A stretch of DNA of 64,000 nt from the NCBI RefSeq assembly GCF_024623785.1, contig NZ_JANKBZ010000009.1, forward strand, positions 186,001-250,000, given 5' to 3'. This document shows positions 5,286 to 32,030 of the stretch, one piece after another. A program made the translations under genes and the position numbers. The DNA comes from Archangium lipolyticum (GTDB lineage Bacteria > Myxococcota > Myxococcia > Myxococcales > Myxococcaceae). The notes under the pieces were generated by a model. It worked only from the letters and a program-made list of their open reading frames with translations, ran no database searches and was not told the DNA's origin. Every line of letters starts with the position of its first letter. Position 1 is the stretch's first letter.

Positions 5286-7160
5286 TTACTTCAGCTCGCG
5301 GACGACGGTGTCCGGGGGCTCGGGCGCGTCCGCCACGGACTCCAGCGTGTCGGCGGGCGGCACCGGCGCCCGGGGGCGCATGTAGGCGGGCTGCCGGGTG
5401 GGGTCGTCCACCGGGCCCGGAGGCGTCTCCATCGACATGGCCGAGACACCGGACGTCTGGGGCGCCGCCGCGGGCAGCGTCTTCGTCAGTGTGAGGCTAT
5501 CGCGCACGGTGCCGCTCGGGGTGATGAACTTCGCGGACAGCGTGCCTCCATCCACCGTCACGTCGAGGTAGCCCGCGTTGGTGTTGTCGCGGAAGGCCGT
5601 CCAGCTCGGCTGCGAGCCGGGGAAGGCGCGCAGGCTGGCGCCGCCGCTGCCCACCACCATGTAGACGATGCCGCGCGTGCCCGAGGCCGCCACCGCGTCA
5701 CCCTTCATGGGCTTGGAGCGCTCGTAGTTGTGGTCATGGCCGGTGAGGACCAGGTCCACGCCGTACTGCTCGAAGAGCGGGGCGAACTCGCGGCGCATCT
5801 TGAGCTGCGAGCCGTGCTCGCCGCTGCTCCACGTCGGGTGGTGGAAGAAGACGACCTTCCAGGGCCGCTTCGTGGCGGCCAGGTCCTGGGCGAGCCAGCT
5901 CTTCTGCGCGGCCAGCGTGCAGCGGTCGGACGTGGCCAGGCCGATGACGCAGTTGGAGTCGAGCGAGGCGAAGTGCACCGGACCCCAATCGAAGGAGTAG
6001 TAGCGCTCGCTCTTCTCGGGGTTGTTGGCCGGCAGGTAGAAGTTGTCGAGGTAGGGCTGGCCCTGGTTGGTGACGTACTCGTGGTTGCCCGGCGCGGGGA
6101 AGATGGGCGTGGCGCGCAGCAGGGCCGCCATGGGCTTGAACATGTGGTCCTGGAAGTCCGCCTCGGTGCCGGACTCGTACGCGTTGTCGCCGAGCGCGAG
6201 GAGGAACTCGCCGGCGCGCGAGGGTTGCGCGAGCAGCTTGAGCACCTGGCTCTGCGCCGTGCCGCCGGTGCCGAAGTCACCCATGGCGGTGAAGCGCACG
6301 CGCGTCGTCTCGGGGCCGGTGGCCGTCTTGAACTGGCGCACGCCGGCGACGGAGCCGCATGCCTCGACGACGTAGCTGTACGTCCTGCCCGGGAGCAGCC
6401 CATCGAGCTTCACCGCGTGCCGCCAGCCGGCCACCGTGGCGGTGGCGGTGCGGGAGATGTCCGAGCCCTCGCCGAAGCGGACGAAGGGCGTACAGGACAC
6501 GCCGGTGCGGAAGGCCACGAGCGCGCTGGTGGGGCCCACGCTCTGCAGGTACGGCAGGCGGGGCAGCGCCGCCCCCGAGTCCGTGGTGGGCACGGTGGGA
6601 GAGGGTGTGGCGTCATCGGCACAGACGCGGGACTCGGTGATGGAGGCCCAGTCGTTGACGGTGTTGCCGTTGACGGTGACGCGCAGGTAGCGGGCCTTGC
6701 GCGCGGTGAAGCGGTACGTCTGGGCCGCGGTCGTCAGGGTGCTGTCGGCCGCGTACGCCTGGGTGAAGGTGGTGCCGTCCTCGGAGGTGGAGAGGATGAA
6801 GTGGTTCTGGCGCGTGTCGCCCTGGTGCCAGGCGATGGCCGCGCCCGCGATCGACTGCGAGGTGCCGAGGTCCATCGTCAGCCACGCACCCTTGCCCGGG
6901 CCACTCCAGCGCGTGCCCGTGTCGTCGTCCTGGGTGTTGGCGGCCACGCTGCCGGCGCCGTCATCGCCGCTGGCGCTCGTGCCGGCGGTGGTGAGCATGC
7001 GGCAGTTGGTCACGGTGAGCCCGGCCGCGGTGTCGTGCACCTCCCGGGGCGCTGGCGTTTCGGCCACCGTCGGGGAGGGCGGGGGAGTGGAGGGGGATTC
7101 ACAGGCCGTGGTGAGCAGGGCACCCACCAGACAGGAGGATGAGAGGATTCGCTTGTGCAT
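5286..7160 (-). CDS. Purple-acid-phosphatase-like metallophosphoesterase with F5/8 discoidin domain, lipoprotein
   Basis: A 624-residue secreted phosphoesterase. The signal ends ALLTTAC (lipobox). A discoidin (F5/8 type C) carbohydrate-binding domain spans about 50-185, with DDDTGTRWSG and SIAGAAIAWHQGD. A fibronectin-like PAP N-domain covers about 195-285, and the catalytic calcineurin-like domain about 285-520. All metal motifs are present: MGDFGTGG, LALGDNAYESG, PAPGNHEY, VVFFHHPTWS and LTGHDHNYERS. The proline-rich C-terminal tail (about 540-624) is low complexity. A hairpin covers the ribosome-binding site. It probably releases phosphate from extracellular organic esters; substrate specificity is not deducible. 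Confidence 0.9.
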   Translation of the reverse strand: MHKRILSSSCLVGALLTTACESPSTPPPSPTVAETPAPREVHDTAAGLTVTNCRMLTTAGTSASGDDGAGSVAANTQDDDTGTRWSGPGKGAWLTMDLGTSQSIAGAAIAWHQGDTRQNHFILSTSEDGTTFTQAYAADSTLTTAAQTYRFTARKARYLRVTVNGNTVNDWASITESRVCADDATPSPTVPTTDSGAALPRLPYLQSVGPTSALVAFRTGVSCTPFVRFGEGSDISRTATATVAGWRHAVKLDGLLPGRTYSYVVEACGSVAGVRQFKTATGPETTRVRFTAMGDFGTGGTAQSQVLKLLAQPSRAGEFLLALGDNAYESGTEADFQDHMFKPMAALLRATPIFPAPGNHEYVTNQGQPYLDNFYLPANNPEKSERYYSFDWGPVHFASLDSNCVIGLATSDRCTLAAQKSWLAQDLAATKRPWKVVFFHHPTWSSGEHGSQLKMRREFAPLFEQYGVDLVLTGHDHNYERSKPMKGDAVAASGTRGIVYMVVGSGGASLRAFPGSQPSWTAFRDNTNAGYLDVTVDGGTLSAKFITPSGTVRDSLTLTKTLPAAAPQTSGVSAMSMETPPGPVDDPTRQPAYMRPRAPVPPADTLESVADAPEPPDTVVRELK

Positions 7161-16749: not shown

Positions 16750-19700
16750 ATGAGTGTCCCTTCCAGATTCCTTGCGGCCGCTCTGCTCGTGGCCGCTCTC
16801 GTTACGGGTTGTCCGGGTCCAGGAGTCGATCCGGGCGAAGATGATGCCGGTCATGTCGACCCCATTCCCACCGACGACGGTGGCACCCCAGACGCCGGTG
16901 ATGGAGGTTCTCCCGACGGTGGTGGCCAGAATCCCGACCAGGTCGAGATTCCGGTGCCCAGCACTCGCGATCCGAACAACAACAAGATCGACACCGACTG
17001 CGACGGCCTGTCGAACGCGGAGGAGTGGGGCAACCTCTACGCGCCGGGCAGCCTGAAGACGAAGCCGGGCGTGCGCGACTCGGACGGCGACGGCCTGCGC
17101 GACGGCGTCGAGGTGGGTCGCACCACCAGCAGCTTCAATACGACCGCGGAATGCCTGGCCCTCTTCATCGCCGACGCGGACCCGGCCACCCGGACCAACC
17201 CCACCAACCCGGATACGGATGGTGACGGCCTGAAGGACGGCCTGGAGGACACCAACCGCAACGGCAGGAAGGACCCGGGTGAGACGGACCCGGCCAACCC
17301 GGACACGGACGGAGATGGTCTGCTGGACGGCGCCGAGGACGCCAACCTCAACGGCGTGCTGGACCTGGGCGAGACCGACCCGCGCCTGCGTGACATGGAC
17401 GGCGATGGACTCTCGGACAACATCGAGCTGAACGTCACCCGCACCGACCCGCGCAACCCCGACACGGACAACGACACCTGCAAGGACGGCGCGGAGGACA
17501 TCAACGGCAACGGCCAGAAGGACCCGGGCGATACGGATCCGCTCAACGGCAAGGACTGCGGCACGGGCACCCGGCCGGACTCGGACAACGATGGCCAGCC
17601 GGACGACGTCGAGGATCGCAACGGCAACGGCATCGTGGACCCGGGCGAGACCGACAAGAACAACCCCGACACGGACGGTGACGGGCTGAAGGACGGCGTG
17701 GAGGACAAGGACCACAACGGCGCGGTGGACTCGGGCGAGTCGAACCCCCTCTCCAAGGACTCGGACTGCGACGGCCTGCTCGATGGCCCCAACCAGGGCA
17801 CCTTCCTGGGCGAGGACGTCAACGGCAACGGCCTGAAGGATCCGGGTGAGACCGACCCGTCCAAGCGCGACACCGACGGCGACGGCCTGCTGGACGGCGT
17901 GGAGCGCGGTGTCACCACCGCCGCGGCTCCCGTCACCAATTGCGGCTACTCCGGCGACCAGGACCCGGGCACCAAGACGGACCCCCTGGACAACGACTCG
18001 GACAACGACGGCATCGCCGACGGCGCCGAGGACGCCAACCAGAACGGCCGCAAGGACCCCGGCGAGCTGGACCCGAAGAATGGCGCGGATGGCGCCGTCA
18101 ACACGCCGGCCGGCCAGGCCTGCTCCGCCAACAACCTGCGGCAGGTGACGTTCCGCGAGGACAGCGGCGGTGACGTCCGCCTGGCGCTCCGCCCCGAGTT
18201 CCAGGAGGTGAAGCAGATCGTCGTGAACGGCGGCGGCAAGGGTTTCGTCGGCTATGACGACACCCACAAGGTGGCGTTCATCGCCTTCAAGCGCGGGCAG
18301 GCGGGCACCTCGACCACGGCGATCGGTGACGAGGCGTACGTGCGCGGCCTGTTCAATCCGTCGGTGACGTCGACCACGATCACCACCCAGACCTTCACCA
18401 CCTGGGACAACCACCCGGCGGTGCTGGCCTACTATGACCAGCCCGCGACCACCAACCTGCGCGACTACGCCAACACCATGGCCAACTCGCTCGTCGGTGC
18501 GGGCGCTGGCACGCTCACGGGCGGCTCGGGCGTGACCGGTCCGTACAAGATCCAGGCGCAGTACGTGCACCGCTCGAACTCGAGCGTGCTGGTGGTGCTG
18601 GCCATCACTCCCGCCAACCGCTTCGTGGAGCCGGGCCTCTTCGTCATGAGCGACACCGCGGGCGGCACGGCGCTGGCCCAGTTCGGTGACGCGGACGCGG
18701 TGCAGTGCGAGACCTTCACCACGGGCAACGGCATGGCCGACTTCCTCTTCGTGGTGGACGACAGCGGTTCCATGGAGACGTCCCAGAACGCGCTGGGTCA
18801 GGCCGCCACGGCCGTGGCCAACCGGTTGAGCAACTCGCAGCTCGACTGGCGCATCGCCATGGTGAGCTCGTCCTACACCCAGACCGGCTATGGCATCCCC
18901 AACGCCGGAGTGTTCCGCGGCTTCACCAACAACATCGATCAGTTCAAGGCGTGGTTGGTGAAGGGCGCCACGTGCCCCGACCCCACCCAGGGGTGCTGGA
19001 TCGGCATCAGCGGCTCCAGCGACGAGAAGTCCCTGCACAGCGCGCGCGGCGCGGTGGACCACATGACCAATGCCGGCACCGCCGCCGCCCAGAAGTACCG
19101 TCCGGGCGCGAAGCTGGTGGTCATCATCCTCACCGACGTGCGTGACACGAACGACAACACGCCCGTCAGCACGTACATCGACTACTTCAAGGGCGCGAAC
19201 CCCACCGGCCAGCTCATCCAGATGCACGGCATCATCTGCGACCCGGCCGGCGGCGGCGAGTGCTACCCGGGCGAGCCCATCAACGATCAGCGGCACATCG
19301 AGGTCATCCAGGCCACGGGCGGTGTCACGGGCAGCATTCGCAGCGCCACGTCCATCCAGAACACCATCAACACCATCATGGACAGCGCGATCGCCTCCTC
19401 GGGCTACCGCACGCTCAAGCCGCCCATCGGCGCCTCGGTGCGTGTGGCGGTGGCGTCGGTGAGGGATCCCTCGCAGTGCAACGCGAGCGACCTGCCGCGC
19501 AGCCGCGTGAACGGCTTCGACGTGGACGGCGTCAGCCAGGCGCTGGCCTTCTACGGTGCGTGCCGTCCCGCCGCCGCGGGCTCGACGCAGGCCGCCATCT
19601 CCTACCGCTACTGGTCCGACCTCACGCCGAACAAGGATGGCAACCCGCCGCCCTGCTCGGGCGACACGGGCTACTACGACCCGACGCAGGCGGACTTCTG

Positions 19701-20100
19701 CAAGAACAACCTGGTCTGCAACCGGCAGACGAACCGGTGCGAGTGCCCGTCGAACTGCGGTGGCGGGGGCTCTCCGGGCCAGGTGTGCAACACCAGCAAG
19801 GACGTGTGCGGCTTCGTCTGCGCGGCGGACTGCGGTGGGGCGTGCGGCAGCTTCCAGCAGTGCAACACCAGCACCTGCTCCTGCCAGTGCGTGGCGAGCG
19901 CCACCTGCGCTCCGGGCTTCAAGTTCAACGCCGCCAGCTGCAGCTGCGTCTGCGACACGGCGGCGCTCAACTGCGGCTCCACCTACCAGGCCGACCCGAA
20001 CTCCTGCTCGTGCGTCTGCAAGGACAACTGCGGTGGCAGCTGCACGGGCAGCACGACGTGCAACATGAGCACCTGCCGCTGCGAGGGGAAGATCGGCTAG
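16750..20100 (+). CDS. Large lipoprotein with thrombospondin type 3 repeats, VWA domain and Cys-rich tail
   Basis: A 1116-residue surface lipoprotein (signal ending LVTGC, Cys21). Residues about 75-450 contain at least eight calcium-binding repeats of the form NPDTDGDGLKDG-ED-N-NG--DPGETDP, as in TSP3 and OmpA-linked proteins. A region of unknown fold (about 455-655) precedes a von Willebrand factor A domain with the MIDAS motif VVDDSGSM near residue 670. The tail from about 980 is rich in Cys (CECPSNCGGGG, CSCQCV, CSCVC), resembling stacked EGF-like knots. The architecture suggests Ca-stabilised adhesion or a cell-surface scaffold. A strong terminator follows, so it is a single-gene transcript. 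Confidence 0.85.
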   Translation: MSVPSRFLAAALLVAALVTGCPGPGVDPGEDDAGHVDPIPTDDGGTPDAGDGGSPDGGGQNPDQVEIPVPSTRDPNNNKIDTDCDGLSNAEEWGNLYAPGSLKTKPGVRDSDGDGLRDGVEVGRTTSSFNTTAECLALFIADADPATRTNPTNPDTDGDGLKDGLEDTNRNGRKDPGETDPANPDTDGDGLLDGAEDANLNGVLDLGETDPRLRDMDGDGLSDNIELNVTRTDPRNPDTDNDTCKDGAEDINGNGQKDPGDTDPLNGKDCGTGTRPDSDNDGQPDDVEDRNGNGIVDPGETDKNNPDTDGDGLKDGVEDKDHNGAVDSGESNPLSKDSDCDGLLDGPNQGTFLGEDVNGNGLKDPGETDPSKRDTDGDGLLDGVERGVTTAAAPVTNCGYSGDQDPGTKTDPLDNDSDNDGIADGAEDANQNGRKDPGELDPKNGADGAVNTPAGQACSANNLRQVTFREDSGGDVRLALRPEFQEVKQIVVNGGGKGFVGYDDTHKVAFIAFKRGQAGTSTTAIGDEAYVRGLFNPSVTSTTITTQTFTTWDNHPAVLAYYDQPATTNLRDYANTMANSLVGAGAGTLTGGSGVTGPYKIQAQYVHRSNSSVLVVLAITPANRFVEPGLFVMSDTAGGTALAQFGDADAVQCETFTTGNGMADFLFVVDDSGSMETSQNALGQAATAVANRLSNSQLDWRIAMVSSSYTQTGYGIPNAGVFRGFTNNIDQFKAWLVKGATCPDPTQGCWIGISGSSDEKSLHSARGAVDHMTNAGTAAAQKYRPGAKLVVIILTDVRDTNDNTPVSTYIDYFKGANPTGQLIQMHGIICDPAGGGECYPGEPINDQRHIEVIQATGGVTGSIRSATSIQNTINTIMDSAIASSGYRTLKPPIGASVRVAVASVRDPSQCNASDLPRSRVNGFDVDGVSQALAFYGACRPAAAGSTQAAISYRYWSDLTPNKDGNPPPCSGDTGYYDPTQADFCKNNLVCNRQTNRCECPSNCGGGGSPGQVCNTSKDVCGFVCAADCGGACGSFQQCNTSTCSCQCVASATCAPGFKFNAASCSCVCDTAALNCGSTYQADPNSCSCVCKDNCGGSCTGSTTCNMSTCRCEGKIG

Positions 20101-20262: not shown

Positions 20263-23200
20263 GTGACCAGTCCCGCACGCATGAAGACCCTCGCGGCCTT
20301 CGTGCCAGCCTCGTTGGTGCGTGGGCTCCTCCAGGACCCTTCCCGCCCTCGAGAGGGGGCGCGCACGGACGGGCCGGCGGTGGTCCTGTTCGCCGATCTC
20401 TCCGGCTTCACCCAGCTGGCCGAGTCGCTGGAGCGCAAGGGCCCGGAGGGGGCGGAGCGTCTGGCGGGCTGCCTCGACTCCTGCTTCGCGGTGCTGGTCT
20501 CCGCCATCCTCGACCATGGCGGGGACGTGCTCCGCTTCGCGGGGGACGCGGTGCTCGCCGCATGGGAGGCCGCGTCCGACGAGGAGCTGCCGCGGATGGC
20601 CCACCAGGCGGTACGGGCCGCGATGGAGATGCAGGCCGGGCTCGAGCGGCTCGAGTTTCCCGGAGGTGGGCGGCTGCGGCTGCGGGTGGGCATGGGGGCG
20701 GGCGAGGTCCGCTTCTTCGACATCGGCGGCGTGGGCGAGCGCTGGGAGTTCCTGGCCGCCGGGCTCCCGCTGCTGGAGATGGCGCGGGCGGAGGGGCTGG
20801 CGCGGCCCGGGGAGATCCTCCTCTCCGCCTCGGCCTGGAGACTGTTGGAGTCACGGGCGCGGGGCGAGCCGCTGCCCGGTGGGGAGTGGCGGCTGCGCTC
20901 CGTCGAGCCGCTGCCGCCGTCGCATCCCGGGCCCGCCGAGCCGCCGCCCCACCTGGAGCCACGGCTGCGCGCCTACGTGCCCGAGGTCGTGCGCCGCCGC
21001 CTGGAAGCGGGGCACACCCAGTGGCTCGCCGAGTTCCGCAACGTGACGGTGCTGTTCGTGAACCTGACGGACCCGGAGGTGGCGGCGGGGATGCGCCAGG
21101 CGGAGTTGCAGCGGGCGTTCCGCGCCATCCAGGAGGCGCTGGCGCAGTACGGGGGCTCGCTCAACCAGGTGGTGGTGGACGACAAGGGCGTGGTGAACGT
21201 GGCGGCCTTCGGGCTGCCGCCACTGGCGCACGAGGACGACGCCGCGCGCGCCACCCTGGCGGGCCAGTGCATCCAGGCCTCGCTGCGGGCGCTGGGGGTG
21301 GCGCACCGCATCGGCATCACCAGCGGCCGGGTGTTCTGCGGCGTCTACGGCAACGCGCGGCGCCGCGAGTACGTGACGCTGGGCGACGTGGTGAACCAGG
21401 CCGCGCGGCTGATGCAGGCGGCGGGGGAGGGGCAGGTGCTGTGCGACGCGGCGACGGCGCGGCTGGCCTCGTCCCGCGTCCGTTTCGAGCCGCTGCCTCC
21501 CGTGCGCGTCAAGGGCAAGACGCAACCGCTCGAGGTGTACCGGCCCGAGGAGCGGGTGGTGGCGCGGGACCTGCCCGGGGCGAGCCCGGATGCACCCATG
21601 GTGAACCGGGACGTCGAGCGGGGCCACCTGGCCGAGGCGATGCGCGCGCTCGTCGAGGAGGGGAGGGGCGGAGTCGTCTTCATCGAGGGCGAGCCCGGCA
21701 TCGGCAAGTCCCGGCTGCTGGCCCACCTGCTGCGGGGCGCGGAGCGGGCCGGGCTCACGCCGTGCTTCGGCGCGGGCGAGGCGCTGGAGCCCTCCTCCAC
21801 CTATCTCGCGTGGCGCGCGCCCCTCTCGCGGCTGCTGGGACTGGAGGGGCTGCCGGACGTCGCCACCCGCACCGCGCGGTTGATGGAGCACCTGCGGCGC
21901 TTCCCCGAGGTGCAGGCCTGGGCCCCGCTGCTCAACGCGGTGCTGCCGGTGGCGGTGCCGGACAACGAGGTGCTCCAGTCCATGAGCGGCGCCACCCGCG
22001 CCGAGAGCACCCGGGAGCTCGTGGTGCGGCTGCTGCTGGAGGCCGCCGGCTCCCGCCCGTTGCTGCTGGTGCTCGATGACGTGCACTGGATGGATTCCTC
22101 CTCCTGGGCGCTGGCGGTGGCGGCGCGGCGGCAGGTGGAGCGGCTGCTGCTCGTCCTCTCCGGGCGGCCCATGGGCGAGAGCGCCCCTCCGGAGTACCGG
22201 CTGCTGCGCGAGCAGCCCGAGGCGGTGTTCCTGCCCCTGGAGCGGATGACGCAGGAGCACGTGCTCGACCTGGTGTGCCAGCGGCTGGAGGTGCGGTACC
22301 TGCCCCGCGAGGTGGCGGAGCTCATCCGCGAGCGGGCCGAGGGCCACCCCCTCTTCAGCGAGGAGTTCGCCTACGCGGTGCGCGACTCCGGGCTCTTGCG
22401 AATCCAGGGCGGCGAGTGCCGGATGGCGGAGCGCGGTGTGCCCCGGGCGCTCGGCCTTCCCGGCACGGTGCAGGGCATCATCACCAGCCGGTTGGATCTG
22501 CTCTCGCCGCCGCAGCAGCTCGCCATCAAGGTGGCCAGCATCCTGGGCAGGAGCTTCACCTTCCAGGAGCTCTCCGAGGTGTACCCGGTGGAGGAGGACC
22601 GGGCGCTGCTGCCCGTGCACCTGGAGGCGCTCGTCCGCATGGAGCTGGTGGTGGAGGCGCCGCGCGAGGCCGGGCCCGCGTATGCCTTCAAGCACGCCCT
22701 CATCCAGGAGGCGGCGTATGCCCTGATGACCTTCGCCCAGCGCAGGTTGCTGCACCAGTCGGCGGCCCTCGCGCTGGAGCGCAGGTGGGCGGTGGACGGC
22801 GGGAGCCTCTTCCCGCGTCTGGCCCACCACTGGCGGATGGCGGAGGAGCCGCGCCGGGCGCTGGAGTACCTGGAGCGGGCGGGTGAGGAGGCCTTCGGCA
22901 AGGGGGCGTGGCGCGAGGCCATCACCTTCTATACGCAGGCGCGGGAGCTGACGGAGGGGGTGGGGGCGGGCCTGGTGGCGCCCGACGACGTGCGCCGCGC
23001 CCGCTGGTGCGCGCGGCTGGGCGAGGCCTTCTATTTCGGCCTGGGTGACCTGGAGCGCAGCCGGAGCTATTTCACGGAGGCGCTGCTGCTGCTGGATCGG
23101 CCGCTGCCCTCCTCGCGGGGAGGCTGGCTGGTGCGCGCGGTCCGGGAGTCACTCCGGCAGCTCACCCACGTGGCCGCCCTGCACCGGTTGCGGCCCCGGA

Positions 23201-24432
23201 CGGAGGATGACCGCGAGCGGCTCGCGCTGGCGGCACGCATCACCTCCCTGGTGGGCCGCGAGCGCTCCATGTCCCTGGACACGCTGGGCTGGTTCACCGC
23301 CGCGCTCGCCGCCATCAACGACGCCGAGGCCGCGCGCCAGCCGGTGCCCGCTTCCCAGGCCTACTCCGGACTGGGCTCGCTGGCCGGCATGGCCCGGTTG
23401 CACCCGCTCGCCCGGCGCTACTTCCTGCGGGCCCGCCACACGCCGGACTCCTCTCACGTCGCCTATGGCGACTACCTCGAGGGCTCCTACCTGCTGGGCT
23501 TCGGCCGCTGGGAGGAGGCCTTCGGCCGGGCCGAGCACTGTCTGGACATCGCCCGGTGGATGAACGACCGCGTCAGCGCGGAGCTGGGCTACACGGTGAT
23601 GGCGCTGGGCACGGACCTCAGTGGCGAGCCCGCCGCCGCGCAGCGCTTGCGCGAGGCCCAGCTGGAGGCGGCGCGCGCGGCGAGGAACCTGCAACTCCAG
23701 GTGTGGACGCTCACGGATCTGGCCTCGACGCTCTTGTGTCTGGGACGGCTGACCGAGGCCCAGGCGCGGCTGTCCGAGGTGGAGCTGATGCTCTCGGGCA
23801 ACGTGCTGCCGCTGCTGCTCGTGCACTTCAGCGGCATCCGCGCGCTCGCCGCGCTGAGGGCCGGAGATCTCACCCGGGCGCGGGCCGAGTCGCGGCAGGC
23901 GCTGGGGTTGATGAGCAAGAAGCTGGCGTCGAGCCTCATCATGCTCCCCTCGTACTCGGGGTTGGCGGAGACGTGCCTGGCGTTGTGGGAGGAGGCACGG
24001 CGCACGGCGGCTCCCGAGACGCGGGAGTGGTCCGCTCGCGCGGCGGAGGCGTGCCGGGCGTTGAGGAGCCTGGCGCGCATGTTCCCCGTGGTGGGGACGA
24101 GGGCCCTGCGCCTGGAGGGCGTGTGGCTGTCGCTCGCGGGCAGGCCGTCGCGCGCCGCCAGCCGCTTGCGCCGCGCGCTGGCCGTGGCCCGGAGATACGG
24201 GATGCCCTACGACGAGGGGCTGGCCCATTACGAGCTCGCTCGCGCCCTGTTGGACCCGGCGCTTCGGACCCGGCACCTCGTCGAGGCGCGCGCACTCTTC
24301 ACCCGGCTGGGGTGCGCCCATCATCTGAGGGCGACGGAGACGTTGGCTCTCCAACTCGGACTCGGTGGCGCGCTCACCGCGAGCGAGGCGGCGAGCCGTG
24401 AGGATTTGACCCGCACGGGAAGTGGTGGCTAG
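20263..24432 (+). CDS. Soluble-adenylyl-cyclase-like protein: two class III cyclase domains, AAA ATPase, TPR region
   Basis: A 1389-residue cytoplasmic signalling protein. Cyclase domain 1 (about 38-200) has both metal aspartates, in LFADLSGFT and RFAGDAVLAAW. Domain 2 (about 260-430) has lost these but keeps the ribose/transition-state residues in LGDVVNQAARL (Asn and Arg). This is the complementary C1/C2 pseudo-heterodimer arrangement of mammalian sAC. An ATPase module follows with Walker A GEPGIGKSRLL at 476-486 and Walker B LLLVLDDVHWMD near 605, then a TPR-like helical region to the end. The GTG at 20263 has GAGGT ten bases upstream; an ATG at 20281 is the alternative. It ends 50 bases before the RiPP-like genes on the same strand; a regulatory link is inferred. 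Confidence 0.88.
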   Translation: MTSPARMKTLAAFVPASLVRGLLQDPSRPREGARTDGPAVVLFADLSGFTQLAESLERKGPEGAERLAGCLDSCFAVLVSAILDHGGDVLRFAGDAVLAAWEAASDEELPRMAHQAVRAAMEMQAGLERLEFPGGGRLRLRVGMGAGEVRFFDIGGVGERWEFLAAGLPLLEMARAEGLARPGEILLSASAWRLLESRARGEPLPGGEWRLRSVEPLPPSHPGPAEPPPHLEPRLRAYVPEVVRRRLEAGHTQWLAEFRNVTVLFVNLTDPEVAAGMRQAELQRAFRAIQEALAQYGGSLNQVVVDDKGVVNVAAFGLPPLAHEDDAARATLAGQCIQASLRALGVAHRIGITSGRVFCGVYGNARRREYVTLGDVVNQAARLMQAAGEGQVLCDAATARLASSRVRFEPLPPVRVKGKTQPLEVYRPEERVVARDLPGASPDAPMVNRDVERGHLAEAMRALVEEGRGGVVFIEGEPGIGKSRLLAHLLRGAERAGLTPCFGAGEALEPSSTYLAWRAPLSRLLGLEGLPDVATRTARLMEHLRRFPEVQAWAPLLNAVLPVAVPDNEVLQSMSGATRAESTRELVVRLLLEAAGSRPLLLVLDDVHWMDSSSWALAVAARRQVERLLLVLSGRPMGESAPPEYRLLREQPEAVFLPLERMTQEHVLDLVCQRLEVRYLPREVAELIRERAEGHPLFSEEFAYAVRDSGLLRIQGGECRMAERGVPRALGLPGTVQGIITSRLDLLSPPQQLAIKVASILGRSFTFQELSEVYPVEEDRALLPVHLEALVRMELVVEAPREAGPAYAFKHALIQEAAYALMTFAQRRLLHQSAALALERRWAVDGGSLFPRLAHHWRMAEEPRRALEYLERAGEEAFGKGAWREAITFYTQARELTEGVGAGLVAPDDVRRARWCARLGEAFYFGLGDLERSRSYFTEALLLLDRPLPSSRGGWLVRAVRESLRQLTHVAALHRLRPRTEDDRERLALAARITSLVGRERSMSLDTLGWFTAALAAINDAEAARQPVPASQAYSGLGSLAGMARLHPLARRYFLRARHTPDSSHVAYGDYLEGSYLLGFGRWEEAFGRAEHCLDIARWMNDRVSAELGYTVMALGTDLSGEPAAAQRLREAQLEAARAARNLQLQVWTLTDLASTLLCLGRLTEAQARLSEVELMLSGNVLPLLLVHFSGIRALAALRAGDLTRARAESRQALGLMSKKLASSLIMLPSYSGLAETCLALWEEARRTAAPETREWSARAAEACRALRSLARMFPVVGTRALRLEGVWLSLAGRPSRAASRLRRALAVARRYGMPYDEGLAHYELARALLDPALRTRHLVEARALFTRLGCAHHLRATETLALQLGLGGALTASEAASREDLTRTGSGG

Positions 24433-24435
24433 CCT

Positions 24436-24480
24436 TTCCCCCAAGCCGCCTCCACGTGGAGTCGCGGCCGTGAGGGGGAA
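24436..24480 (+). promoter_or_regulatory. Leader able to pair with the ribosome-binding site of the small proline-rich gene
   Basis: TTCCCCC at 24436-24442 is the exact complement of GGGGGAA at 24474-24480, which is the Shine-Dalgarno region ending two bases before the ATG at 24483. Between them TCCACGTGGA (24451-24460) is self-complementary. Translational control is inferred; a search for conservation in homologous loci would test it. Confidence 0.4.
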
Positions 24481-24482
24481 CA

Positions 24483-24758
24483 ATGAAAGAGCTGCAGATC
24501 GTCGGGGATGACGGACAGGTGTACCGGATGTCGGGGACTCCGGAGCGCATGAGCGTGGCGTCAGACCCCAATCCGAAGCCCACACAGCCGCCCAAGCCCA
24601 CGCAACCGCCCACGCCGGAGAAGCCCGGGCCAGGCCCCGGTGAGCGCGAGCCCGATACCGACACGCCTCCGGCGGTTCCCATCGTCGTCCCGACGAGCAA
24701 GGCGGGTTACCGGACGTCGGGACAGGGCCGTCCCTCGCACTCCGGCACGAATGGTTGA
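24483..24758 (+). CDS. Candidate RiPP precursor: 91-residue proline-rich peptide upstream of YcaO-TfuA
   Basis: I do not recognise this peptide as a known family. It begins MKELQIVGDDGQVYRMSG, a strand-turn-strand-like N-terminal block that could act as a leader. Residues about 28-56 form a Pro-rich spacer with a direct KPTQPP repeat, and residues about 57-91 (ending AGYRTSGQGRPSHSGTNG) are rich in Ser, Thr and Gly. It has no Cys and no signal peptide. A strong GAGGGGGAA precedes the ATG. Its stop lies inside the YcaO gene (eight-base overlap), so it is translationally coupled to the modifying enzymes. This context is what suggests a precursor; a small accessory protein is the alternative. 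Confidence 0.65.
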   Translation: MKELQIVGDDGQVYRMSGTPERMSVASDPNPKPTQPPKPTQPPTPEKPGPGPGEREPDTDTPPAVPIVVPTSKAGYRTSGQGRPSHSGTNG

Positions 24759-25968
24759 GACACCCAAGCGATTCCAGGCGGGAACCCACCGCCTGGTGTC
24801 GCCCGAGGAGACGGTGGCGCGGCTGCGCCCCCTCCTGCCTGTGATGGGCATCACCCGGGTGGCCAACGTCACCGGGCTGGACACCATCGGCATTCCGGTG
24901 GTGATGGTGTGTCGGCCCAACTCGCGCTCGCTGGCGGTCTCCCAGGGCAAGGGGTTGGACCTGGCGTGCGCGGAAGCCTCCGGGCTGATGGAGTCGGTGG
25001 AGTCCTACCACGCCGAGCGCATCACCTCGCCGCTCAAGCTCGCCAGCCATGACGAGCTGCGCTTCACCCATGCGCTGGCGGATGTCTCCGCGCTTCCCCG
25101 CTCGTCGCTGGGCGCCTTCCATCCCCGGCTCCGGCTGATGTGGATCGAGGGGCAGGACCTGCTGAGGGACATGCCGGTCTGGGTGCCCTTCGAGCTGGTG
25201 CACACCAACTACACGCTCCCGTTCCCACCCGGCAGCGGCGCGTTCCTGCCGAGCTCCAACGGGCTCGCCTCGGGCAACCACCGCCTGGAAGCCATCAGCC
25301 ACGGCCTGTGCGAGGTGGTGGAGCGCGATGCGACCTCGCTCTGGCTGAAGCGGGACGCTGAGGGACGGCGGCGCACGCGGGTGGCGCTGGAGACGGTGGA
25401 CGACGCGGCGTGCCGGCAGGTGCTGGAGCGGTACGAGCGCGCCGGAATCGAGGTGGGCGTCTGGGAGATGACCTCGGACGTGGGAATCGCGGCCTTCTTC
25501 TGCGCCATCGTCGACAAGGCCCAGGAGTCGCTCCGGCCGTCCTGCGCCGCGAGCGGCATGGGCTGTCACCCGGCGCGTGGGGTGGCGCTGCTGCGGGCCC
25601 TCACCGAGGCGGCCCAGAGCCGGTTGACGATCATCGCGGGCTCGCGGGACGACATGGACTCGCGGCTCTACCAGAACGCGCGGGAGGCGGAGTGGCCCCG
25701 GCGCCTGCGTGACTGGATGGGAGAGGAGGGCCCGCGGCGGAGCTTCCGGGACGCGCCCGACGGGGCGGGCCAGTCGTTGGACGAGGACCTGGCCTGGGAG
25801 CTGGAGCGCCTGCGCGCCGTCGGCATCACCGAGGTGGTGGTGGTGGACCTGACCCGGCCCGAGTTCCAGATACCGGTGGTGCGCGTGGTGGTGCCCGGGT
25901 TGGAGGCGCTCTCCACGCTGCCGGGGTACGTGCCGGGCGCCCGTGCGCGCGGCGGGAGGTGGACGTGA
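24751..25968 (+). CDS. YcaO-domain protein (TfuA-associated, probable thioamide-forming ATPase)
   Basis: A 405-residue YcaO enzyme, which uses ATP to activate peptide-backbone amides. The ATP/Mg motifs are visible: EASGLMESVES (E75, E81, E84) and EAISHGLCEVVERD (E180, E188, E191, R192, D193). The C-terminus ends VVPGLEALSTLPGYVPGARA rather than in the PxPxP of azoline-forming YcaOs, which fits the TfuA-partnered class. There is no fused or adjacent E1-like (ocin-ThiF) partner. The ATG at 24751 overlaps the precursor-like gene, and the stop overlaps the TfuA start (GTGA). Backbone thioamidation is inferred from the TfuA pairing known in thioviridamide-type clusters and methanogens. Confidence 0.9.
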   Translation: MVETPKRFQAGTHRLVSPEETVARLRPLLPVMGITRVANVTGLDTIGIPVVMVCRPNSRSLAVSQGKGLDLACAEASGLMESVESYHAERITSPLKLASHDELRFTHALADVSALPRSSLGAFHPRLRLMWIEGQDLLRDMPVWVPFELVHTNYTLPFPPGSGAFLPSSNGLASGNHRLEAISHGLCEVVERDATSLWLKRDAEGRRRTRVALETVDDAACRQVLERYERAGIEVGVWEMTSDVGIAAFFCAIVDKAQESLRPSCAASGMGCHPARGVALLRALTEAAQSRLTIIAGSRDDMDSRLYQNAREAEWPRRLRDWMGEEGPRRSFRDAPDGAGQSLDEDLAWELERLRAVGITEVVVVDLTRPEFQIPVVRVVVPGLEALSTLPGYVPGARARGGRWT

Positions 25969-27323
25969 AGGTCTTCGTGTTCACCGGGCCCACGCTCTCC
26001 GAGGAGGACGTGCGGCGCGAGCTCGACGCCACGTGCCTGCCGCCAGCGGCCCAGGGGGACGTGTACCGGGTCTCGCTCGAGCGGCCGGGGGCCATCGGCA
26101 TCATCGATGGCTACTTCGAGCGGGTGCCCTCCGTCTGGCACAAGGAGATCCTCTGGGCGCTGAGCCAGGGCATCCACATCTTCGGGAGTGCCAGCATGGG
26201 GGCGCTACGGGCCGCGGAGCTCGCGCCCTTCGGGATGGAGGGGGTGGGCACCATCTATGAGGCGTTCCGGAGCGGTGAGCTGCGGGACGACGACGAGGTG
26301 GCGGTGACGCACGGTGCCGCCGAGGATGGATACCGCGTGCTCACCGAGGCGATGGTGAACATCCGGGGCACGCTGCGGCGCGCGGAGGAGGAGGGGGTAC
26401 TCCGTCCGGCGACGAGGGCCGGGCTGGAGCGGATGGCCAAGAGTCTCTTCTACGCCGAGCGGGCCTGGCCGACGCTCCTGGCGGGCGCGAGGCGCGAGGG
26501 CCTGCCGGAGGACGAGGTGGCGGCGCTGCGCGCCTGGCTGCCCCGGGGACGCGTCGACCAGAAGCGGGAGGACGCGCTGGCGATGTTGCGGGTCATTCGC
26601 GAGCGGCTGGCGGAGGAGCCGGGACCGAAGCAGGTGCGCTTCACCTTCGAGCACACCGATGCCTGGGAGGAGATGCGGCATCGCGCGGCCCGGCTTCCGC
26701 TGGGAGGCCGTGGAGACGGGCCGGGGATGGAGGAGGCGCTGCTCGAGGAGCTCCGCCTGTCCGGGAACTACGCGCGGGCGGCCCGGGGCGCGCTGGGGCG
26801 TGCGCTGGCGCTGGAGGAGGCGCGGCGTCAGGGGCGGCGGAGCGACGAGGCGTCCCTGGGCCGCGCCGAGCTGGACCTCCGCCGCGAGCACGGTGTCCTC
26901 ACGCCGGAGGGGCTCACCCGGTGGCTCGAGGAGAACGGGGTGGAGGACTTCCAGCGCCTCCTGCGTGACGAGGCGGACGTGCGCTGGGTGCACGACGTCC
27001 TCGGGTTGGAGCTGGAGCGCTGCCTGCCGGACCACCTGCGGGTCTCCGGCGAGTACGCGGCCCTGGTGGCCCGTGCGCGTGACAAGCTGCGAGTCCTCGG
27101 TGCGCACGAGCCGGAGGGCGCGGAGCCCGGGATGACGGAGGAGGCGCTGTGGCGCTGGTACTTCGTCACGCACCTCGGCCGCCCGGTGCCGGACGACCTG
27201 GAGCACTACGCGCGCACCGCTGGCTTCGGGGAGGTGCGGTCGCTGCGGCGGGCCGTGCGGCGGGAGCTGCTGTACGCGCGCCGGCGGATGGAGGAGGGGC
27301 CGGAGTCCTCCGGCGGCGCGTAG
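25965..27323 (+). CDS. tfuA: TfuA-like protein with C-terminal helical extension
   Basis: A 452-residue partner of the YcaO protein, thought in characterised systems to supply sulfur or allow thioamide formation. The GTG at 25965 has GGGAGG five bases upstream. The TfuA core (about 1-215) shows VFVFTGPTLSEEDV, the GIIDGYFERVPSVWHKEI block and FGSASMGALRAAEL, all conserved in the family. From about residue 230 a long charged helical domain of unknown function follows, including GLTRWLEENGVEDF and LWRWYFVTHLGRPVPDD. That extension could bind the precursor; this is inference. It is the last gene of the precursor-YcaO-TfuA set and is convergent with the lipoprotein ending at 27324, with no spacer. 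Confidence 0.88.
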   Translation: MKVFVFTGPTLSEEDVRRELDATCLPPAAQGDVYRVSLERPGAIGIIDGYFERVPSVWHKEILWALSQGIHIFGSASMGALRAAELAPFGMEGVGTIYEAFRSGELRDDDEVAVTHGAAEDGYRVLTEAMVNIRGTLRRAEEEGVLRPATRAGLERMAKSLFYAERAWPTLLAGARREGLPEDEVAALRAWLPRGRVDQKREDALAMLRVIRERLAEEPGPKQVRFTFEHTDAWEEMRHRAARLPLGGRGDGPGMEEALLEELRLSGNYARAARGALGRALALEEARRQGRRSDEASLGRAELDLRREHGVLTPEGLTRWLEENGVEDFQRLLRDEADVRWVHDVLGLELERCLPDHLRVSGEYAALVARARDKLRVLGAHEPEGAEPGMTEEALWRWYFVTHLGRPVPDDLEHYARTAGFGEVRSLRRAVRRELLYARRRMEEGPESSGGA

Positions 27324-27704
27324 TCACTGGATGCAGGTGATCTGCTCGTTCTGCACGGCACAACCCTGACAGGTCTGCGCCGTCCAGGTGCCCGAGGTGC
27401 AGCGCAGCGCCTCATCCGGGTTGCCCACCGCGCACTGGCCCTTGTTCTCGCTCGTGGCCGGGCAGGCATCGCCCGCCTGTGCGCGCGAGAAGTCACACGT
27501 CAGGCTGCCATTGCTCTCGGTGCAGCCGCTCGGGCCGCTGCAGGGAATGGCGCGGAGCTTGCCGCTCTCGCACCACAGGGCCTCGGAGGTGCTGCTGCAG
27601 GTGGCGCTGTTGTCCGGAGCGCAGTCGTCACCCGCCTCCATCTTTCCACAGGCGGTGAGGGCGAGGGACGCGAGCAGGGTGACAAGGGAGGGAAGAGCCT
27701 TCAC
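27324..27704 (-). CDS. Small Cys-rich lipoprotein
   Basis: A 126-residue lipoprotein of unknown function. The start is a GTG at 27702-27704 with GGAG eight bases upstream. The signal ends LASLALTAC. The mature part has about twelve Cys in a pattern such as GDDCAPDNSATC, CESGKLRAIPC and CTSGTWTAQTC, suggesting two or three short disulfide-bonded repeats. Similar Cys-rich lipoproteins are frequent in myxobacteria. It lies convergent to the TfuA gene and divergent from the YceI gene. No catalytic motif is visible. Confidence 0.75.
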   Translation of the reverse strand: MKALPSLVTLLASLALTACGKMEAGDDCAPDNSATCSSTSEALWCESGKLRAIPCSGPSGCTESNGSLTCDFSRAQAGDACPATSENKGQCAVGNPDEALRCTSGTWTAQTCQGCAVQNEQITCIQ

Positions 27705-30238: not shown

Positions 30239-31996
30239 TCAACGAACTGGTTGGAGCCCCACGGGAGTCGAGTCCGTGCGGAAGACGGGGTAGAGGTTGA
30301 GGCGCGTGTCGTTGGCCGGGTGGCGCTCGTAGAAGAAGCGCAGGCGGGCGCGGGGGTTGCTGGCGAACTCCTTGTTCTTCAGCTTCTCCTCCCAGGCGGC
30401 CTTGACGGCGGGGTCCTTCGCCAGCAGCTCGCGGGCGAAGGGCTCCAGGATGTAGTCCTCGACGTACTCCTTCTGCTCGAAGTGGTTGTTGAAGAAGCCC
30501 CAGGAGAGCAGGGAGTCCGGTCCGAGCGGCTCGAGCAGGTGCGCCACCAGGGGCGCGCTCTTCTGCGCCGCCGGCACGTAGAGCGTGCCCTTGGGGAGCG
30601 GTTGGGTGTCCTTCTTCCAGTCGCCCTTCACGGAGAGCACCTGGTGGCCCTCGACGGAGGCGGGGCGGAGCTTCGCCTCGGTGGCGCGGAACACCTCCAC
30701 CTGGGCCGAGGGCACATCCTGGCCGAGCCGCTGGAAGCGCAGGCCGTGCGTGGTCAGCTTCTCCGCCACCCAGGCAGCGTGCGCCGGGGGAATCAGGTAG
30801 CCGCCGGTGGGCAGCGTGGCGGTGAGGCCCGGGCGCAGCTCCTCGTAGTAGGGAATCGTCCACACCTGCGGCTTCGTGTCGTCGTAGCGGATCCACGGCT
30901 GGCCGGACACCTCGGAGGGCATGCGCTCGTAGGCGTAGCCGCGGAAGGAGATGGGGCGGCTCTTCTCGGTGTTCTCCCAGAGGAGCACCACCTCGCGGAC
31001 CTTGCCGGACTCTGCCTCGGCGTCAGCGGCCTTCCGCGCGGCCATCAGCGTCTGGCCGTCCCGGGCGACGAGCCGCAGCAGGCCCTCCAGCACGTGACGC
31101 GTGGTGGCCACGCGGTGGGCGTAGGGCTTCCAGGAGTGCGTCTCCACGAGGATTCCGTAGCGCCGGTTCACCGCCCAGTACGGGTGGCTGAAGCGCGGGG
31201 GAGACACGCCGTAGCTCACGCCGGAGGCGGGGTCATCGTTCTCCCGGAAGGAGGGGTAGAAGGCGAGGGGCAGGTGGCCCTTGGACTCCAACTCGGTGAA
31301 GAGCTCCTCGCGCAGCTTCGTGCCCAACGTGCGCAGGGCCTCGGGGCCCGTCTTCTGCGGCTCCATCTGCACGCTCACGTCGTGCTCGAATTTGGCGCCA
31401 TCCGTGACGTGCAGGTCCACGTAGAAGAGGGGGTCCCAGGAGTGCAGCAGCTTCAGCACCGCGACCATCTCCGGGGCATCCGCCTTCACGTAGTCGCGGT
31501 TGAGGTTGAGGTTCTGCCCGGTGACGCGCCAGCCCATCTCCTCGGGGCCCACCTGGTTGGGGCGGTTGTTGGGGCCGAAGCGCTCGTGGCCATCCACGTT
31601 GAAGACGGGCAGGAAGACGGCCGTCACCTGCTTGAGCGCGCCCGGCAGTGCCTTGCCGTCGAGCATGTCCCTGAGCAGCCAGAAGCCGGCGTCCTTGCCG
31701 TCGATCTCCCCGGCGTGGATGCCGCCCTGGAAGAAGACGACGGGGCGGCCCTTCTTCGCGGCGGCGGCGGGAGTGAGGGTGCCATCCGCGCTCGCGACGA
31801 GCACGAGCATGGGACGGCCCTCGGGCGTGGTGGCGAAGGTGTCGCAGCGCACCTTGCCGGGGTAGCGCTTGGGGAAGGCGCGGCAGAGCGACTCCACCTC
31901 CGCGTAGCGGCCGGTGCGGATCCATCCGCTCTGCTCGGCGACGGTGGTGAGGGGGGCCTGACTGAGAGCGAGTGTGAGGAGTACGGGCAGGAGCAT
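30239..31996 (-). CDS. M14-family zinc carboxypeptidase-like protein, secreted
   Basis: A 585-residue exported metallopeptidase. The start at ATG 31996 opens the signal MLLPVLLTLALSQA. The M14 domain covers about residues 20-330: GGIHAGEIDGKDAG supplies the first zinc His and Glu, and FYVDLHVTDG the second His. ETHSWKPY is near the position of the catalytic Glu loop. The C-terminal 250 residues form an additional beta-rich domain of unknown role found in related myxobacterial and Xanthomonas proteins. It probably trims extracellular peptides, fitting a predatory lifestyle. Confidence 0.85.
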   Translation of the reverse strand: MLLPVLLTLALSQAPLTTVAEQSGWIRTGRYAEVESLCRAFPKRYPGKVRCDTFATTPEGRPMLVLVASADGTLTPAAAAKKGRPVVFFQGGIHAGEIDGKDAGFWLLRDMLDGKALPGALKQVTAVFLPVFNVDGHERFGPNNRPNQVGPEEMGWRVTGQNLNLNRDYVKADAPEMVAVLKLLHSWDPLFYVDLHVTDGAKFEHDVSVQMEPQKTGPEALRTLGTKLREELFTELESKGHLPLAFYPSFRENDDPASGVSYGVSPPRFSHPYWAVNRRYGILVETHSWKPYAHRVATTRHVLEGLLRLVARDGQTLMAARKAADAEAESGKVREVVLLWENTEKSRPISFRGYAYERMPSEVSGQPWIRYDDTKPQVWTIPYYEELRPGLTATLPTGGYLIPPAHAAWVAEKLTTHGLRFQRLGQDVPSAQVEVFRATEAKLRPASVEGHQVLSVKGDWKKDTQPLPKGTLYVPAAQKSAPLVAHLLEPLGPDSLLSWGFFNNHFEQKEYVEDYILEPFARELLAKDPAVKAAWEEKLKNKEFASNPRARLRFFYERHPANDTRLNLYPVFRTDSTPVGLQPVR

Positions 31997-32030
31997 GGCG
32001 GCCCCTACTGAGCACACCGCCCGTCCTCGC

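Follow-up and report, generated by a model that had tools for sequence, protein, structure and literature searches.

Organization of the locus

A stretch of 64,000 nucleotides from the Archangium lipolyticum genome (assembly GCF_024623785.1, contig NZ_JANKBZ010000009.1, positions 186,001 to 250,000; hereafter the window) encodes a small protein of 91 amino acids, a YcaO protein and a TfuA protein in immediate succession on the forward strand. The small gene overlaps the YcaO gene by 8 bases and the YcaO gene overlaps the TfuA gene by 4 bases. An earlier note on this DNA had described these frames, the 91 codons and the absence of Cys from the small protein, and all of this agrees with the open reading frames (ORFs). 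Fifty-one bases upstream of the small gene, on the same strand, ends (at 24432) a 1389-residue frame that combines nucleotide cyclase, AAA ATPase and TPR parts. What the YcaO-TfuA pair modifies is very probably the product of the small gene. The signalling gene probably belongs to the locus as well, in which case the locus is not minimal, as the earlier note had called it. The features are listed below in window coordinates (L numbers denote loci and G numbers genomes; L069 is in G078 and L073 in G076).

20263..24432, + strand: upstream signalling gene, nucleotide cyclase-AAA ATPase-TPR, 1389 amino acids (start codon uncertain); Guanylate_cyc, AAA_16 and TPR_12 matches
24483..24758, + strand: candidate substrate/precursor gene, 91 amino acids; ORF, translation and recurring leader
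24483..24536, + strand: leader block MKELQIVGDDGQVYRMSG, proposed recognition sequence; recurs at L069 and L073, single match of the leader pattern in the window
24567..24680, + strand: proline-rich spacer with KPTQPP repeat, residues 29-66 of the small protein; seen in the translation, with proline-rich spacers likewise at L069 and L073
24693..24755, + strand: C-terminal tail TSKAGYRTSGQGRPSHSGTNG, proposed core from its position and Ser/Thr/Gly content only
24751..25968, + strand: YcaO, 405 amino acids from ATG 24751, proposed ATP-dependent amide-activating enzyme; PF02624, alignment with MJ1094 (6pe3)
25965..27323, + strand: TfuA, 452 amino acids from GTG 25965; PF07812, residues 3-216 align with the solved TfuA 6xp8
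26712..27005, + strand: SurA-like helical part of TfuA, residues ~250-347, proposed substrate-binding domain; profile matches of relatives and fold comparison on a model

A purine-rich GAGGGGGAAC lies upstream of the small-gene ATG at 24483, and no sigma-70-like promoter was detected in 24200-27600.

The small gene and its leader

Searched against Pfam and NCBIfam with E values as high as 1 allowed, the small protein matched no family, which bears out the earlier statement that it is unlike known precursors. A nitrile-hydratase-leader or Nif11 precursor was rejected on the same result, both leader models presumably being among those in Pfam and NCBIfam. No second copy of the small gene was found in its own genome, where the next best match had an E of 0.07. 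Two other genomes (G078 and G076) likewise encode a block of the form MKELQ[IV]VG[DE]DG[QR][VL]YR[MV] ahead of YcaO, with similar spacing. Because this leader block recurs ahead of YcaO elsewhere, the small gene is unlikely to be a chance ORF, and that explanation was discarded. The small genes of L069 and L073 encode MKELQVVGEDGRLYRV, followed by a proline-rich spacer and the tail GFKSSPVSISSFRAR or GFKSAPVSIASFRAR. Between the window and either relative 11 of the 18 leader codons differ, 4 of them synonymously and 7 not, and this 4:7 ratio, in the leader alone, is by itself no sign of selection. The tails have a G-[FY]-[KR]-[ST]-[SA] stretch in common by eye (GFKSS or GFKSA at L069 and L073), for which alignment gives no support. 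A leader conserved among homologues, in a small gene beside the modifying enzyme, is a general mark of precursors of ribosomally synthesized and post-translationally modified peptides (RiPPs), and it is found here. The earlier view of the small gene as a precursor is thus strengthened by the recurrence of its leader beside the two nearest YcaO relatives.

The YcaO and TfuA proteins

The window YcaO matches PF02624 at 6e-86, and its closest relative in the PDB is MJ1094 (6pe3), with the MEsvE, EvvERD and RALTEaAQSR stretches aligned, which we take to be ATP-site motifs. The TfuA protein matches PF07812 at 3e-47, and its closest PDB relative is 6xp8 (3.5e-34), with residues 3-216 and the ASMGALRA-type stretch (GsaSMG) aligned. 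A YcaO domain with its motif stretches and an adjacent TfuA domain, the marks of a TfuA-associated thioamidating pair, are therefore both present. The best NCBIfam models of the two enzymes are of the McrA-thioamidation type (TIGR03266 and NF033432). Assignment to the McrA-glycine thioamidation equivalogs themselves was rejected, with scores below the cut-offs (246 versus 365 bits for TIGR03266 and 208.6 versus 235.2 bits for NF033432).

TfuA continues past its PF07812 part with a second domain that makes up about half of the protein, and no Pfam match was found after residue ~220 of the window protein. Eight related TfuA C-terminal halves gave three matches to TIGR04500 (best 1.2e-12) and one to SurA_N_3 (0.0011). 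SurA chains also headed a fold comparison with a two-sequence AlphaFold model of the C-terminal half (mean predicted local distance difference test (pLDDT) 61): 8pzv at Z 6.0 (3.4 A), 2pv3 at Z 5.3 and 1m5y at Z 5.1, each over 97 residues, followed by a glycosylase at Z 4.0. The model of the whole TfuA (mean pLDDT 60.5) was too uncertain for use. A profile search of the PDB with the C-terminal halves gave three weak matches, the best being a designed bundle (0.0073). The likeness of this helical domain to SurA is suggestive only, and the domain may be a stand-in for a RiPP recognition element (RRE) or substrate-binding domain. No RRE-like row was noticed among the fold-comparison rows listed, which is not a test for an RRE.

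Four YcaO matches occur in the 12.6-Mb source genome (75 contigs), one being that of the window, one its kin (on C42) and two distant (on C7 and C32). The locus on C42 (L066, G000:C42:29414-37454) encodes a YcaO 64% identical to that of the window and a kinase-AAA-TPR gene, and ~7.5 kb downstream a protein with two tandem tag domains, the tag being the two-motif domain described below.

Related loci carry a two-motif domain

Within the window's order, 30 of 145 genomes have a YcaO match at E < 1e-60, and 29 of these genomes belong to the window's own family. Stretches around the YcaO matches extended ~8 kb to each side where the contig or a 20-kb limit permitted, and genes were called with a custom codon-based caller. 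In a maximum-likelihood tree of 63 YcaO rows the 40 family rows form one clade (97/95), and it is these rows, window included, that we call the 40 related loci. Rows were omitted for L065 and L065b, which duplicate L084 and L084b, and L123, L124 and L128-L130 stand outside the tree. The earlier note had suggested such a phylogeny, and in it the window YcaO forms one clade (100/98) with those of L069 and L073, the three loci that have the same small gene.

The proline-rich 91-residue precursor type holds for these 3 of the 40 related loci and is the exception among them, as at 30 of the 40 a two-motif domain occurs in a protein encoded on the contig of the YcaO gene. This domain has a DLLxYAPDGxVYWV-like stretch and, ~60 residues on, C-x-L-L-N-L-x-S-I (at L074 the match starts only from profile position 11). 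The two-motif protein lies ~1.1 kb or less before YcaO in 27 rows and ~7.5 kb downstream in three (L044, L054 and L066). L064 and L081 are cut off by contig edges, and in their genomes a two-motif domain lies near the end of another contig. A diverged substrate form was recognized by eye at L055, L058 and L059. The domain occurs in one copy at L084b and in two copies per protein at L066, L046 and L082, and it follows differing N-terminal parts at L078, L074, L060, L052 and L051. Matches of the large-substrate N-terminal parts to FixG_C (0.0015, 0.0007) and T2SS-T3SS_pil_N (0.0029) were all below cut-offs. The Cys that opens the second motif is kept in 15 of 16 aligned large-substrate domains. 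Across the family the domain is present in 26 of 96 genomes, every one of which belongs to the 29 that have this YcaO at E < 1e-60 (hypergeometric 1.8e-20, a figure that ignores relatedness).

Several further loci were noted in passing. By eye, L050 has a transposase-like frame upstream of YcaO and L057 has a remnant AVTCGALNLKSF of the C-terminal motif after a stop, and at both the substrate gene is apparently lost. L128 (G076, ~5800-6390) encodes a tag-domain protein with no YcaO in its 12-kb stretch, and that genome has two YcaO-TfuA loci elsewhere. At L062 (G010) a 48-codon frame ending TSICSYCTP lies ~300 bases before YcaO and is a possible different precursor. At the cyanobacterial loci L120-L124 a Nif11-like small frame ending MCCW stands directly before a related YcaO, again by eye.

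A signalling gene recurs beside the enzyme pair

The window signalling protein matches Guanylate_cyc (1e-17) and AAA_16 (2.7e-17), with TPR_12 (6.4e-5) below its cut-off. Its best NCBIfam match is TIGR03903, and membership in that thiazole/oxazole-modified microcin (TOMM) kinase/cyclase equivalog was rejected (204.1 bits versus a cut-off of 705.75). A same-strand gene of the same cluster, encoding at least 700 amino acids, is present at 29 of the 40 related loci, that is at 28 of the 39 others. In 25 cases it ends no more than 1.5 kb upstream of YcaO and in four it starts after TfuA, 2.4-3.1 kb from the YcaO start. Two of the 11 rows that have no such gene (L064 and L081) are cut by contig ends. 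Domains were checked by scan for the window and L070, and by eye for L052, L066, L072 and L084b. The L070 protein is Pkinase-AAA_16-TPR, and the other four start with a kinase-like stretch.

Twelve further loci were compared with the window or L070 protein, and matches were found at L118, L119, L134, L137, L138 and L139, six of the ten loci outside the family. At L119 the match lies on the opposite strand, with a Crp-like gene between, and a Crp/Fnr regulator is annotated nearby in the Azospirillum lipoferum and Paracoccus kondratievae records. A defence system was also considered and rejected, as the PADLOC matches to the window signalling protein concern the cyclase (PycC) only and there were none to YcaO, TfuA or the small protein. 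For the L070 protein PADLOC returned kinase-type matches (best 25 of 32 families). Elsewhere in the source genome, a TOMM kinase/cyclase fusion is encoded in full length at G000:C49:35752-39597. At 1086 bits it exceeds the TIGR03903 cut-off, and it suggests a separate TOMM cluster.

Leader-like blocks outside the family

The earlier note had proposed a search for homologues of the leader block beside other YcaO-TfuA pairs. The literal block was found in G078 and G076, as described above, and a similar block lies ahead of YcaO in Azospirillum, Indioceanicola and one alphaproteobacterial metagenome-assembled genome (MAG). At L119 (the alphaproteobacterial MAG), L134 (Azospirillum lipoferum) and L138 (A. 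brasilense), a single ORF per locus scores below E 0.5 against the large-substrate profile, and in every case it is the small gene just before YcaO (0.23, 0.099 and 0.086, respectively). Among 55 plasmid records this YcaO is present on 11 Azospirillum records, and a homologue of the A. lipoferum small gene occurs on the same 11 and no other, ~160-250 bases ahead of the match to YcaO; for two of these 11 the leader was read letter by letter. The leader pattern was found at 4 of 14 loci outside the family (L119, L134, L137 and L138), always just before YcaO, and L118 has a similar leader stretch by eye only. At L139, a Sinorhizobium terangae plasmid locus that lay outside the profile, the two-motif domain (E 5.6e-8) stands between the AAA-TPR match and YcaO.

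Genes around the locus

Ten further window frames on both sides of the locus were scanned, giving SMC-like, YceI, cytochrome c, DUF2914, metallo-beta-lactamase-fold and ECF-sigma matches, and no family match for two of the frames. Among the ten there was no transporter match over cut-off, and no match to E1-like or flavin dehydrogenase families at E 0.001. No ATP-grasp gene was recognized at the locus. An M14 zinc-carboxypeptidase-like gene (1.1e-21) lies at 30239-32017 on the minus strand, ~2.9 kb downstream of TfuA. The earlier statement that no protease or transporter adjoins the trio thus stands for the immediate neighbours scanned, with this M14-like gene lying further off. As to the RRE that the note also found lacking, TfuA may contain a stand-in. 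In 16750-20100 a 1116-residue frame shows, by eye, several Asp-rich stretches of the DxDGD type, and its VWA match is below cut-off.

A proposed mechanism and its alternatives

We consider it reasonably likely that the locus encodes a dedicated backbone-modification system, in which the YcaO-TfuA pair thioamidates the 91-residue substrate under guidance of its leader and under control of the cyclase-AAA-TPR protein. The proposal starts from the operon layout, the family assignments, the recurrence of the leader and of the signalling gene, and the co-occurrence of domain and enzyme in kin genomes. That the reaction at this locus would be thioamide formation, with the small protein as candidate substrate, we infer from the enzyme families. 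The N-terminal block ELQIVGDDGQVYRM of the small protein would serve as the leader bound by the enzyme pair, with the SurA-like C-terminal half of TfuA probably assisting. By analogy with its family, TfuA would free sulfide from a carrier of the ThiS type. Passages of two papers (PMC13063428, PMC8939145) report that the sulfur TfuA delivers comes from a thiocarboxylated ThiS homologue, and the genome has three PF02597 (ThiS family) matches over cut-off, none of them on the window's contig (C9). YcaO would use ATP, as others of its family do, to activate a backbone amide and swap its oxygen for sulfur, and we would guess that this amide lies near the substrate C-terminus. Production or modification of the substrate may be gated by the upstream cyclase-AAA-TPR protein (a Ser/Thr kinase-AAA-TPR protein in the kin loci examined) on sensing a signal, which is likewise a guess, as is whether the product would stay in the cell or leave it. 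Three genes can be enough for such chemistry, as precursor, YcaO and TfuA suffice for thiovarsolin B according to passages of PMC6511847.

Several observations weigh against parts of this proposal. In the window small protein the tail has no C-x-L-L-N-L motif and no clear aligned core, and the window's own TfuA C-terminal half matched no TIGR04500 or SurA model, while the model behind the fold comparison is of low confidence (mean pLDDT 61). The window small gene ranked low against a profile of the large-substrate leaders, at row 55 of 67 among 14,039 ORFs (3.7 bits, E 57). Two unrelated frames of the window did as well or better, with 6.0 and 3.7 bits, and the held-out frames of L119, L073 and L069 stood at rows 41, 45 and 48. 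Nor did the window gene stand out with a second profile, built on five leaders of other groups, of which one (L118) was selected by eye. The leader pattern that links the groups was devised after the sequences were seen. In a six-frame translation of 772 kb from 44 sources it matched 25 times, and 21 of these matches fall within substrate genes of YcaO loci. It was not found at 10 of the 14 loci outside the family (L116-L118, L120, L121, L135, L136 and L139-L141). Direct sequence statistics tying the window leader to the large substrates are accordingly weak. Our estimate for the proposed system was kept despite these negatives, because it did not rest on direct leader statistics.

The signalling gene is open to a similar caution. 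Kinase/cyclase-AAA proteins are common, with 48 TIGR03903 matches in the source genome, some of them two per frame, and because such proteins abound there, adjacency at one locus means little and the evidence lies in recurrence. The gene may thus be an unrelated neighbour placed there by chance, a reading that gains from its absence at L069 and L073 and from the lack of a signalling match at 6 of the 12 further loci (L116, L135, L136, L141, L061 and L062). The cluster behind the count of 29 is moreover single-linkage, and its members may have only some domains in common. We nevertheless regard chance adjacency as unlikely, given that 29 of the 40 related loci have a cluster member on the same strand (25 upstream and 4 downstream) and that six of ten loci outside the family have a match.

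Two further explanations concern the small protein itself. It may be modified by another YcaO reaction, to an azoline/azole or an amidine for instance, with TfuA merely structural. Azoline-forming YcaO enzymes exist (PMC4603692), the tail of the small protein is rich in Ser and Thr, and a Cys opens the second motif of nearly all aligned large-substrate domains. We judge this improbable, as TfuA is present with its conserved ASMGALRA-type stretch, McrA thioamidation is the type to which the nearest solved relative and, at a score below its cut-off, the nearest NCBIfam model belong, the window substrate has no Cys, and neither an E1-like nor a flavin dehydrogenase match was found in the ten neighbouring frames at E 0.001. 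Alternatively, the small protein may stay unmodified and act as a leader-docking adaptor or regulatory subunit, the true substrate being encoded elsewhere, as with McrA and uL16. The latter is recognized through a broad tertiary surface and no leader, according to passages of PMC13063428, and the poorly conserved tail of the 91-residue protein and the variable N-terminal parts of its large relatives would suit an adaptor. A conserved leader followed by a variable tail nonetheless has the look of a precursor, two domain copies per protein (L066, L046 and L082) fit a substrate better than an adaptor, and the presence of the domain follows the enzyme across genomes, so that we would give the adaptor little credence.

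If the proposed thioamidation system is extended to the related loci, the recognition sequence could be a portable thioamidation tag, a short beta-hairpin-like stretch read on diverse proteins by one YcaO-TfuA clade in at least two phyla. The enzymes would thioamidate backbone positions close to the tag, gated by a cyclase- or kinase-AAA-TPR sensor, and would serve regulated in-cell modification rather than natural-product chemistry. The carriers of the tag would be the proline-rich 91-residue peptide, proteins of single or tandem tags, and tags that end various N-terminal domains. We advance this broader idea tentatively and hold it to be doubtful. Should the large substrate candidates at the related loci undergo the reaction as well, thioamidation would count as a regulated change made to bacterial proteins of many kinds. 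Few thioamidated substrates are known, those in the literature consulted, in the parts drawn on here, being methyl-coenzyme M reductase, uL16 and RiPP precursors. What the window itself provides is a testable set of three genes in which a recognition block can be named, together with a TfuA half that may bind the substrate and a signalling partner found again at other loci.

Comparison with known systems

The earlier note had suggested an undescribed peptide family. In the open-licence literature of PubMed Central, among the matches listed and in the passages they gave, neither this leader/two-motif motif nor a tie between YcaO-TfuA and kinase/cyclase-AAA-TPR genes was described, and to that extent the suggestion stands. 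It is tempered by the YcaO-TfuA clusters already catalogued in Corallococcus: passages of Malit et al. 2021 (PMC8120280) name this genus among those of the dominant proteobacterial TfuA cluster families, which may include relatives of the window locus. Those passages give no substrate motif, and the word kinase is absent from the main text.

The thiovarsolin genes varA-varY-varT (PMC6511847) resemble the window in that precursor, YcaO and TfuA suffice, and their precursor has imperfect repeats. Kinase and cyclase are words absent from the main text of that paper, and its passages hold neither a leader motif nor a SurA-like TfuA half; the comparison is one of descriptions and not of precursor letters. 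For the McrA pair (TIGR03266/NF033432; 6pe3, 6xp8) the likeness lies in the enzymes, of which these are the closest NCBIfam models and the closest solved relatives. The window enzymes differ in scoring under the equivalog cut-offs, and their proposed substrate is the neighbouring small protein and not McrA.

A kinase/cyclase-AAA protein beside a peptide-modifying locus has precedents in the TIGR03903 TOMM kinase/cyclase fusion and in the NHLP-Burk precursors with a large Ser/Thr kinase, as passages of Haft et al. 2010 (PMC2887384) describe. From these the window locus differs in its score (204 bits versus 705.75) and in a small protein that matches no leader model. The nearest published parallel to a signalling gene with YcaO-TfuA is a passage on graspetide ATP-grasp loci (PMC8939145), some of which have adenylate cyclases and, in branch 6, YcaO and TfuA. 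The passages do not place cyclase and YcaO-TfuA in one locus, and the window locus differs in its lack of a recognized ATP-grasp gene. For the second half of TfuA the parallel is MirC, a TIGR04500 protein with a SurA-like chaperone domain that the rosaritide synthetase needs, according to passages of PMC13097080. In both cases a SurA-like domain would serve a peptide-modifying enzyme, although MirC is a separate partner of an ATP-grasp enzyme, whereas the SurA-like part of the window is fused to TfuA. A similar recognition motif lies on quite different proteins in related bacteria, often with a signalling gene nearby, and this points to a new branch within a protein-modification system already known.

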